A stretch of 64,000 nt of DNA from Gemmatimonadaceae bacterium (GTDB lineage Bacteria > Gemmatimonadota > Gemmatimonadetes > Gemmatimonadales > Gemmatimonadaceae), in the NCBI GenBank assembly GCA_037721215.1, contig JBBJNV010000014.1, positions 1 to 64,000 on the forward strand. The letters are read 5' to 3'. Each line of letters begins with the position of its first letter. The stretch's first letter is position 1. The position numbers were made by a program, and so were the translations under genes. A model generated the notes under the pieces. That model saw nothing but the letters and a program-made list of their open reading frames with translations. It did no database searches and was not told the origin of the DNA. Positions 20,752-23,804 of the stretch are shown here, piece after piece.

Positions 20752-21732
20752 ATGGCTGATATTGTAGCAGGAGTAGATGGCGGCGGGACAAAAACGCATG
20801 CGATCGTTGCTGGCTTCGATGGAGAGGCAGTGGGTGAAGCCATCGGGCCGGGCTCTGCCACCGGGCCCGGCCGCGCCGAGCGTTCTGCCCAGAGCATCGG
20901 TGAAACCGTACGCAGCGCAATGGCTGCGGCTGGAGAACCCGAGGGAAGAGCTAGAATACTCGTGGCCGGCGTTGCCGGAGCCGGCCGGGCGAATGAGGCT
21001 CGGGCGTTGCGCGACGCGCTGGAGGACCTTGACGTTGCGGATGAAATCGCTGTCGTCGGCGATGGCGAGATCGCGCTCACCGATGCTTTCGACGGACGGG
21101 CTGGAATCATTCTCATCGCCGGCACTGGCTCGATTGCTTATGGACGGAGTCCGTCCAACACGATCGCCCGTTGCGGAGGCTGGGGTCCGGCGTTTGGCGA
21201 CGAAGGCAGTGGCGCGTGGATTGGCCGCCGCGCACTCGGTATAGTTGCGGCCGCTGCTGATGGGCGGGAACCATCCACCGAGTTGACGGGAGCGATTCTT
21301 ACTGCAGCTGAGGCGAATGAACCTTCGGAGCTCATTCCATGGGGCATCGCAGCGACACCGATGGACCTTGCCATGCTTGCTCCCATCGTTTTCAACGCTG
21401 CATCGGGCGGCGACATTCGCGCCAACGCACTAGTGTCGCTGGCGGTCGAAGAGCTAGTGCTTCATGTGCGGGCGCTCGCGATTCGACTTTTCGGCGACGA
21501 TCGCGCAGCGGCGCCGGTTGCGTTCGCCGGCGGGCTGCTGCAGAAGGGAGCGCCCCTCAGAAAGCGTCTCGAGCACCGGCTTAGGTCGGCTGTGCCTGGG
21601 GCTCAGCTGAGAGCAGGCGATATCATCGCGGCGCGAGGCGCGGTGAAGGCGGCGATACACATGCTTCAAGGCGCCGATGGCAATGCCTCAGTTTTGCCGG
21701 TCGCGCCGACGGTGGGCAAGCCGATCGAGTAG
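20752..21732 (+). CDS. BadF/BadG-family ATPase, probable N-acetylhexosamine (GlcNAc/MurNAc) kinase
   Basis: A 326-residue member of the ASKHA kinase fold: phosphate-1 motif VDGGGTKTHAIV at residues 8-19, GTGSIAYG, the glucosamine-kinase-like GGWGPAFGDEGSG, and FAGGLLQ near the C-terminus. Members phosphorylate GlcNAc, glucosamine or MurNAc; the Fe-S dehydratase-activator branch has cysteines that are absent here. The location after two sugar-type symporters and near namZ favours an amino-sugar kinase. GGAAG precedes the ATG by about 13 bases. Confidence 0.85.
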   Translation: MADIVAGVDGGGTKTHAIVAGFDGEAVGEAIGPGSATGPGRAERSAQSIGETVRSAMAAAGEPEGRARILVAGVAGAGRANEARALRDALEDLDVADEIAVVGDGEIALTDAFDGRAGIILIAGTGSIAYGRSPSNTIARCGGWGPAFGDEGSGAWIGRRALGIVAAAADGREPSTELTGAILTAAEANEPSELIPWGIAATPMDLAMLAPIVFNAASGGDIRANALVSLAVEELVLHVRALAIRLFGDDRAAAPVAFAGGLLQKGAPLRKRLEHRLRSAVPGAQLRAGDIIAARGAVKAAIHMLQGADGNASVLPVAPTVGKPIE

Positions 21733-21825
21733 CCGGCCGCGCGCGGAAAGCGCGACGATACGCTCGGCAGAGGGCGCAAGTTGGTTGGAAGCCCGAAGCG
21801 GCGTAACGGAACTGCGGAACTGCGT

Positions 21826-21943
21826 GTTTTCAGGTTGTGCAGATGCCTGGCCCCAGCCGTCAGTAACTGCAAACTGAGAAACGCCGACCCATCAGTTGTC
21901 TGTAACAAATGACTCCAGCAGGCGAGGTCGGGGGTCAGGGAGG
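21826..21943 (+). repeat. Left arm of a 118-bp inverted repeat
   Basis: This segment matches the reverse complement of 22417-22534 without gaps; by hand I count about 93 identical positions of 118. Well-conserved blocks include AGGTTGTGCAGA, CAAACTGAGAAA and GCCGACCC. The two arms flank the IVP-family gene at 22025-22405. Both arms read as a short open frame with DGSAFLSL, probably just a result of the sequence similarity. Confidence 0.8.
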
Positions 21944-22024
21944 ATTTCTTTCCGTGCGGATTTCTGGAGGCCCGCGGAATGAAAGGGCGGGCGGAAGATA
22001 CATGGGGCGCGTGAAGTTTCGGGC

Positions 22025-22405
22025 GTGTCAGATTTTAAAAAGCTTCTCGTTTGGCAAAAGGCCCATTCGTTGGCACTTGAGTGTCATCGCGTTGGGACCG
22101 CAATGCGAGGAACCGAACATCCAAGTCTTCGCAGTCAGATGGTCGAGCGGCGATGTCGATCCCGGCGAACATCGTTGAAGGGGTCTCAGGACACCCGGCG
22201 CGAATTTGCGCGCTACCTGAAAATTGCGGTCAATTCGGCCGCTGAGCTGGAGTACCACTTGATAACAGGCCGCGATATCGGCGCCATCGGGAAGCCCGAT
22301 TTCCTGTCTCTCCTCAATCAGCTCGTGGAGGTAAGAAAGATGCTGCACGGCTTGCTCAACTATGCGCGCAAGTCCGAGGCAACCCTCGATGCCACGACAC
22401 ACTGA
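22025..22405 (+). CDS. Four-helix-bundle protein (23S rRNA intervening-sequence protein family), with compensating frameshifts
   Basis: The 126-residue product starts at a GTG as SDFKKLLVWQKAHSLAL, the IVP-family N-terminus, and ends with SAAELEYHLITGRDIG and LLNQLVEVRKMLHGLLNYA, also typical. Between codons 39 and 53 the frame is wrong: the sequence one frame over reads RAAMSIPANIVEG, the family consensus. One base is missing at 22142-22144 and one extra G is in the GGGG run at 22180-22183. The gene is therefore probably damaged though still open. Function of the family is unknown; copies often sit in 23S rRNA intervening sequences. Confidence 0.75.
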   Translation: MSDFKKLLVWQKAHSLALECHRVGTAMRGTEHPSLRSQMVERRCRSRRTSLKGSQDTRREFARYLKIAVNSAAELEYHLITGRDIGAIGKPDFLSLLNQLVEVRKMLHGLLNYARKSEATLDATTH

Positions 22406-22416
22406 ATCCCCAGCCG

Positions 22417-22534
22417 CCGCCTGGCCCCTGAACCTCGCGTGCTGGAATCATTGGTTCCCGACGACTGACGGGTCGGCTTTTCTCAGTTTGCGGCTACTGA
22501 AACCCGATGCCAGGCTTCTGCACAACCTCAAAAC
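22417..22534 (-). repeat. Right arm of the 118-bp inverted repeat
   Basis: Reverse-complement partner of 21826-21943 (about 79% identity by hand count, no gaps). It starts 12 bases after the IVP stop codon and ends 14 bases before the stop of the symporter gene on the other strand. A transcript crossing both arms would fold into a very long stem with the IVP gene in the loop. Confidence 0.8.
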
Positions 22535-22547
22535 TCAGCTTTTTATC

Positions 22548-23804
22548 TCACGCCGCCAGTGACTGCTCCACCGCAACATCGGGTACCGGCACGAACTCCC
22601 CTTCCCACCGTGCCATCACCACCGTTGCGAGACAGTTGCCCACAAGATTTACGGTCGTTCTCGCCATGTCCATCAGCTCATCGACACCCAGGATGAGTGC
22701 CACGGCCTCGAGCGGCAGCCCGAACGACGCCAGCGTTCCCGATAGAATCACGAGCGAAGCACGTGGCACTGCTGCGACGCCCTTACTGGTTACCATCAGC
22801 GTCAGCATCATGATGAGCTGCTGGCCGAAGGTCATGTCGACGCCAGCCGCCTGAGCCGCGAACACCGACGCGACCGCCAGGTAAAGCGTAGTACCGTCCA
22901 GATTAAACGAGTAGCCGGTCGGCATCACGAACGCGACGATTCGCCGCGGCACGCCGATGCGCTCCATCGCCTGCATCGCGCTTGGCAGGGCGGCTTCTGA
23001 CGATGTCGTCGAAAACGCGATGAGTGCCGGGGCCTTCACTGCTTTCAGGAACTGTCTTATCGGCACCTTGAACATGATCGCGACAGGGACCAACACGAAG
23101 GCGACCAGAACGATCAGAGCCCCGTATAGCGTCAGGATCAGCTTGCCGAGGTTGATGAGAACTCCGACGCCGCTATGACCGACGGTGACAGCCATTGCGG
23201 CGCCGATGCCGATTGGCGCGTACCTCATGACGATGCCCGTAAACTTGAACATCACCTCGGCAAGCCCTTCAGCACCCGCAAGTACGAACTCTTTCGGCTT
23301 CCCGCGTACCTGCGATAGCGCTATCGCGAACAGGATGGAAAAGAACACGATCTGCAGCACGTCGTTTTTTGCGGCCGCTTCGAAAAAGCTCTGTGGGACA
23401 ATGTGCTCCAGGAATCCACCAGCTGTCGGGGTATTCGCGGCGAGTTTCTGTCCCTGGTCTGCCGATCCAGCCAAAACCACTCCTTCGCCAGGCCGCACCA
23501 GATTCGCGGCCCCAAGCCCGATGAACAGCGCCAGCGTGGTGACAATCTCGAAATAGATGATCGACTTGAAGGCAAGCCGGCCGACGCGCTTCATGTCGTC
23601 GCCATGGCCAGCAATTCCCATCACGAGCGTTCCGAATATGATCGGCACGATGATGGACTTGATCATCCGGAGGAAAACTGTGGATAGCGGCTTGAGCGAC
23701 TGGGCAAAGTCGGGAGCGAGCCATCCAAGTATGGCCCCGACAACCATGCCGATCAGGATCCACTTGGTCAGCGAGACCCGGCGTAGCTGAGTAAAGACGT
23801 TCAT
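22548..23804 (-). CDS. Dicarboxylate/amino acid:cation symporter (DAACS family)
   Basis: A 418-residue transporter of the GltP/DctA type, which takes up glutamate, aspartate or C4-dicarboxylates with sodium or protons. Signatures seen: IVPIIFGTLVMGIAG, the serine-rich re-entrant loop IAFSTTSSEAALPSA, PTGYSFNLDGTTLY and the second hairpin SKGVAAVPRAS. The ATG overlaps the TGA of the upstream permease by one base. An aspartase gene at 3.5 kb could consume imported aspartate, though it is not linked. Confidence 0.93.
   Translation of the reverse strand: MNVFTQLRRVSLTKWILIGMVVGAILGWLAPDFAQSLKPLSTVFLRMIKSIIVPIIFGTLVMGIAGHGDDMKRVGRLAFKSIIYFEIVTTLALFIGLGAANLVRPGEGVVLAGSADQGQKLAANTPTAGGFLEHIVPQSFFEAAAKNDVLQIVFFSILFAIALSQVRGKPKEFVLAGAEGLAEVMFKFTGIVMRYAPIGIGAAMAVTVGHSGVGVLINLGKLILTLYGALIVLVAFVLVPVAIMFKVPIRQFLKAVKAPALIAFSTTSSEAALPSAMQAMERIGVPRRIVAFVMPTGYSFNLDGTTLYLAVASVFAAQAAGVDMTFGQQLIMMLTLMVTSKGVAAVPRASLVILSGTLASFGLPLEAVALILGVDELMDMARTTVNLVGNCLATVVMARWEGEFVPVPDVAVEQSLAA

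Follow-up and report, generated by a model that had tools for sequence, protein, structure and literature searches.

An IVP-family gene between long inverted arms as a probable small transposable element in a Gemmatimonadaceae bacterium

IVP/S23 ("four helix bundle protein") genes form a common bacterial family for which we know of no role. In Coxiella burnetii, an IVP gene lies in the 23S rRNA intervening sequence (IVS), between terminal inverted repeats of 28 bp and with heptamers (GACAGAT) adjoining the open reading frame; RNase III cuts this IVS at its terminal stem, and its distribution is sporadic (PMC4990558). Mobility of IVSs has been suspected in the literature since 1993 (cited in PMC4990558). 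RAYT/REP (REPIN) systems resemble the IVP elements considered here in placing one gene between inverted palindromes, alongside numerous gene-less palindromes of that family, and MITEs and insertion sequences resemble them in having terminal inverted repeats, target duplications, and gene-less derivatives. To our knowledge, the heptameric repeats of bacteria have so far had no explanation. Heptamers occur in Nostoc and in Xanthomonas (GGGAATC; two genomes of the latter have 70 and 75 inverted pairs), and are described as simple repeats or G-quadruplex sequences with no partner gene (PMC4692102).

The unit described here lies in the window, that is, the whole 64,000-nucleotide stretch of Gemmatimonadaceae DNA that was analysed, and shares with the IVS class an IVP/S23 open reading frame, complementary and stem-forming terminal arms (118 nt, 79%), and sporadic occurrence among genomes (Table 1). 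A sequence-only reading had described two oppositely oriented arms, about 79% identical, around one IVP-family gene and between two ordinary genes without rRNA, and all of this was borne out. A repeat search of the window returned a single inverted pair at the expected coordinates, 79% complementary over 118 nt ungapped with a 473-nt spacer (82% over 114 nt when aligned with gaps). In a uniform arm test, in which the flanks of a 318-nt slot were aligned, each against the reverse complement of the other, this pair scored 123; none of 395 other positions in the window scored above 34, and the same arms in direct orientation scored 30. A chance inverted repeat was thus ruled out, as was a low-complexity artefact, since the direct-orientation and cross-locus controls scored far lower. 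The enclosed frame matches PF05635 (6.8e-17) and TIGR02436 (8.7e-16), and its protein has two sequence relatives of solved structure, 2GSC and 2RLD. Rfam found no rRNA in the window, where its only matches were two tRNAs, and with no Rfam match to the unit a known RNA family was ruled out. Unlike a 23S IVS, therefore, the unit lies between two protein genes and outside 23S rRNA; its arms are also longer than those of the Coxiella IVS (~100 bp versus 28 bp), and several IVP families per genome, gene-less copies, and target duplications in sister families further set these elements apart. Because an IVS is by definition inside rRNA, the window unit is not one, while the gene and the architecture are common to both. 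The sequence GGAACTGCGGAACTGCGT may be the true outer end of the element; at the outer ends of this genus's IVP elements, an inward-pointing AACTG occurs at 22 of 52 and CAGTT at 3 of 52.

Table 1. Features of the IVP element in the window and copies of its arm family elsewhere in the same genome (C, contig).
Feature	Position	Strand	Remarks
Whole element, arm to arm	21826..22534	+	709 bp; bounded by the arms; absent from this site in same-genus genomes
Left (upstream) arm	21826..21943		Outer end GTTTTCAGG, recurring with small differences in the family's other genomic copies
Right (downstream) arm	22417..22534		Inverted copy; outer end CCTCAAAAC
GGAACTGCGGAACTGCGT	21808..21825		Just beyond left arm; suggestive only
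IVP-family four-helix-bundle gene	22025..22405	+	GTG start, 126 aa; PF05635/TIGR02436
Conserved motif RAAMSIPANIVEG	22144..22182	+	In another frame than the ORF; two compensating frameshifts
Left neighbour, BadF/BcrA-type ATPase/kinase gene	20752..21732	+	Host gene, outside element
Right neighbour, sodium:dicarboxylate symporter gene	22548..23804	-	Convergent; host gene, outside element
Arm-only palindrome	C26:61580-61824		Window family
Arm-only palindrome	C11:113649-113880		Window family
Arm-only copy	C1:58725-59113		Window family; IVP remnant and inner heptamers
Single arm	C2:104507		Window family

Comparison with relatives shows that the site exists without the unit. In same-genus genomes the two neighbour genes are adjacent, whereas 815 bp separate them in the window genome: the empty-site gap is ~26 bp in relative G013 and ~60 bp in G005, and the genes overlap or touch in G002, G011, and G014. 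Absence at the orthologous site in relatives was also found for the element on contig C29, whose flanking stretches are 163 bp apart in G013, and for elements of cyanobacterial plasmids. As seen by eye, the BadF-symporter gap holds different, gene-less palindromes in G012, G020, and G026, which suggests that the gap between these convergent genes is a favoured landing site and a possible insertion hotspot.

The unit's own genome (3.5 Mb in 45 contigs, 97% complete) contains at least four other copies of the window arm family, so that related copies occur at unrelated sites of one genome. Small differences apart, the paired copies all have the ends GTTTT(C/G)AGG...CCT(G/C)AAAAC, and the flanks are unrelated. 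The copy at C1:58725 retains the first 18 IVP codons (HMM E 5e-4) and carries GGTGTCA heptamers on its inner side; because the IVP start and the heptamers are kept, it resembles a full element that has lost part of its interior. Seven PF05635 loci were found in this genome, six of them (including the partial C1:38174) flanked by inverted repeats scoring 37-123; the seventh (C4:136381-136527) is a decayed, armless IVP fragment interrupted by a TAG codon. The other IVP families of the genome also have extra copies or arm-only palindromes elsewhere. By analogy with RAYT/REP and MITE pairs, the IVP element would work as a transposable element with non-autonomous derivatives. A search of the genome for the Y1 (PF01797) transposase found none, and RAYT/REP was ruled out on this ground; in addition to lacking the Y1 (HUH) enzyme, the IVP elements differ from RAYT/REP in that their gene encodes a four-helix bundle, their arms are longer, and target duplications occur in sister families. 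Unlike MITEs and insertion sequences, they have no recognisable internal transposase (none among the open reading frames of the window unit, and none in the same-arm copies examined), arms that are entirely different from one IVP family to the next and in many cases have a 7-nt period, and duplications of variable length. A separate observation concerns C1:24338-38617, where seven like-oriented palindromes of ~120-160 bp, all sharing their arm family with the IVP element on C1, lie 1-3.5 kb apart and, in the first part of the region, alternate with toxin-antitoxin-like genes (HipA, PIN, Fic, PIN, Doc/Fic) in the manner of a cassette array.

Sister elements move into new sites, duplicating 5-9 bp of the target; the sites seen so far lie between genes, and such duplications were found in two families. 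The first is the family of an element on contig C4, further near-identical copies of which (89-96% identity) are broken at contig ends (C16, C33, C35, C44, and both ends of C5). Comparison of junctions placed its ends at GGTAGTGGGTCA...TGACCCACTACC, and the duplicated targets are 7, 8 (with a single mismatch), and 9 bp long. The flank pairs AAATCGG (C44 with an end of C5) and GGGCGTCGG (C33 with C35) are pairings inferred from contig ends, and the contiguous copy has the flanks CGTGTTCT/CGCGTTCT. In the second family, plasmid C of Trichormus is filled where plasmid2 of Nostoc linckia NIES-25 is empty, at ~98% identity, and GTAAT (5 bp) stands on both sides of the filled site; at the same point, plasmid E of Nostoc C052 has an apparent truncated IVP remnant. 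The elements of Nostoc C052 and Calothrix NIES-22 were also compared with empty sites, but differences of some tens of bases at those sites left no clean junctions. Elements 71-81% identical were also found in unrelated flanks of different genomes. By eye, neither the window copy nor any other copy of its family shows a target duplication, and a bulk search with ends defined by arm alignment gave a negative result, perhaps owing to imprecision of those ends. The three target sites of the C4 family resemble small hairpins, and IVSs sit in rRNA helices; we do not claim insertion into hairpin targets, since flank complementarity, tested in bulk, gave a negative result (z 0.9). The empty sites, the further copies, and the target duplications of sister elements support the idea, first raised from the letters of the window, of a free-standing or mobile intervening-sequence element.

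The IVP gene of the window copy itself is probably degraded and inactive, unless a sequencing error is responsible. The most conserved motif of the IVP family, RAAMSIPANIVEG, is present in the gene and out of frame, so that two frameshifts must cancel around it. This copy is an old one. In pairwise comparisons of full-length IVP genes, some of them between different sites, dN/dS is 0.04-0.14; IVP proteins are under purifying selection and their reading frame is kept, so the element seems to need the protein in order to persist.

The pairing of IVP genes with inverted arms extends well beyond this genome. Most of the genomes used are draft or metagenome assemblies. IVP genes were present in 51 of 61 relatives (genomes of the same genus, family, and order), at up to 11 per genome. 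Relative G033 is Gemmatirosa kalamazoonensis, since an IVP gene on its contig C3 agrees in position and strand with NZ_CP007129.1, and this places the window organism in the GTDB family of Gemmatirosa. With an inverted-arm score of at least 38 as the threshold, which misses short arms, 76 of 85 IVP loci of Gemmatimonadota had inverted arms, compared with 10 of 85 in direct orientation and 0.8% for swapped arms. Among 72 loci that a single scan of 84,980 genomes gave for other phyla (Chloroflexota, Planctomycetota, Bacteroidota, Bacillota, CPR, and others), the corresponding values were 26, 6, and 0.2%; some two thirds of the loci outside Gemmatimonadota fall below the threshold, and arms there may be short or absent. 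None of 20 armed loci of other phyla lay in rRNA. Arm sequences differ between IVP families, and what they have in common is complementarity and often a 7-nt period, with arms often composed of degenerate heptamers. Within 180 nt of the IVP gene, this period was strong at 49 of 156 loci, compared with 1 of 156 in far flanks (p 1e-15); the next-best period, 8, was found at only 9 loci. Read on the gene's sense strand, the upstream arm is rich in G at 63 of 76 loci in Gemmatimonadota and 20 of 26 in other phyla, indicating that arms and gene have a fixed polarity. When ten genomes with armed IVP loci were searched, the arms or similar heptamer arrays had matches elsewhere in most of them, some being uncertain on account of low-complexity units.

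Heptamers may connect these elements with repeats already described. Like the STRR of cyanobacteria and the heptamers of Xanthomonas, many IVP arms consist of 7-nt tandem units that often form inverted pairs between genes. The period is clear for the IVP class as a whole and for the GGTGTCA units at C1:58725, and weak in the window arms (lag-7 identity of 0.36 and 0.33). In cyanobacterial plasmids, heptameric arrays of the same kind bracket IVP genes in inverted orientation, with 7 of 15 loci above the arm threshold; in Nostoc sp. C052, for example, the IVP gene is preceded by GGGAACA units and followed by TGTTCCC units. The solved IVP protein 2GSC bears an X. campestris locus name, XCC0516. 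In contrast to the heptameric repeats described without a partner gene, IVP arms have one. At the site of a full IVP element in Nostoc sp. C052, plasmid pNsp_c of Nostoc sp. ATCC 53789 has a gene-less heptamer palindrome. IVP genes also occur within CRISPR-cas operons of cyanobacterial plasmids, in the orders cas6-IVP-cas4 and cas10-IVP-cmr3.

These data are best read as showing a class of palindromic transposable elements in which IVP is the resident gene. The window unit is likely to be one copy of such a small element, with long inverted arms and a single IVP gene, in which IVP moves the arms. In the model we propose, the IVP protein, a four-helix bundle that is presumably a pentameric ring as in a solved relative, would recognise the arms, probably as a hairpin, and would bring about their movement in cis and in trans. 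Once transcribed, the arms could form a long hairpin that RNase III might excise, which would make insertions in operons or rRNA tolerable, and 23S rRNA IVSs would be members of the class that landed in rRNA. The role of IVP as a mobility factor is inferred, as no catalytic site was recognised in it. More tentatively, IVP could be a new mobility protein that spreads palindromic, often heptamer-armed DNA by means other than a known recombinase or reverse transcriptase, which might account for free-standing IVP genes, 23S IVSs, and many heptameric inverted repeats of cyanobacteria, xanthomonads, and others. The Coxiella IVP open reading frame, which is seemingly not expressed and decaying (PMC4990558), counts against our explanation. 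The idea of mobile IVSs is old; a search of openly licensed full texts turned up neither free-standing, heptamer-armed IVP elements nor their derivatives and duplications. The pairing of IVP with arms provides both the gene family and the heptameric repeats with a testable function, as gene and substrate of one mobile element, and a decades-old guess about 23S IVSs becomes directly testable.

Several other explanations must be weighed against this reading. IVP may instead be a passenger, picked up by MITE-like terminal repeats that are moved by an ordinary transposase encoded elsewhere, as the inverted repeats, target duplications, and many gene-less copies might suggest; nor was a nuclease motif recognised in IVP. 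We consider this unlikely, given that IVP and inverted arms recur together in many phyla with unrelated arm sequences, that IVP is under purifying selection, and that arm matches in the unit's own genome were arm-only palindromes, IVP elements, or contig-end fragments. The duplication length, moreover, varies (5, 7, 8, and 9 bp), unlike that of most DDE transposases. Taken with the lack of Y1 and reverse transcriptase matches in the genome, this variation suggests that IVP has an unrecognised activity or directs a host enzyme.

A role in RNA was also considered. The sequence-only reading had offered, as its second option, a long-hairpin RNA that carries its own protein, and the fold agrees with the hairpin part: the 709-bp unit folds as RNA with z = -14 relative to dinucleotide shuffles, and arm-only copies with z of -11 to -22. 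The unit could then be kept for a regulatory or processing function, much as RNase III cleaves the terminal stem of the Coxiella IVS RNA (PMC4990558), with mobility being incidental. Any long palindrome folds equally well, however, and between families arm sequence is not conserved, only complementarity and often the 7-nt period. Together with the sporadic presence of the unit at its site among relatives, these points leave a primary RNA role quite improbable.

Movement through RNA has a partial precedent in Avd, a distant four-helix-bundle relative that is the partner of reverse transcriptase in diversity-generating retroelements. An IVP element might similarly move with a reverse transcriptase supplied in trans, and the variable duplication length would suit target-primed copying. 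We give this a slender chance, as RVT_1 matches were absent from the unit's own genome (97% complete), which ruled out dependence on reverse transcriptase there, and from IVP-rich relatives such as G011, G023, G033, G036, G037, G045, and G052. The notion that the palindromes are recombination sites of an integron-like cassette system, with IVP as one cassette, is prompted by the alternating array at C1:24.3-38.6 kb and is almost certainly wrong: the genome has no integron integrase above the TIGR02249 cut-off, on which ground an integron was ruled out, the palindromes were seen by eye to be without attC-type ends, and the window gene lies between two halves of one palindrome rather than between two whole palindromes (direct 30 versus inverted 123). 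The preferred reading remains that of a palindromic transposable element with IVP as its resident gene.

Finally, a like arrangement was noticed around genes of another family. We claim no 9-nt period for the arms of GxxExxY (PF13366, PDDEXK_3) genes, for which the period test is too weak. Inverted arms were present at 10 of 21 such genes of the relatives, some with CACAGATG- or CGCGGAGAA-type units, and GxxExxY is possibly a second gene with a like element.
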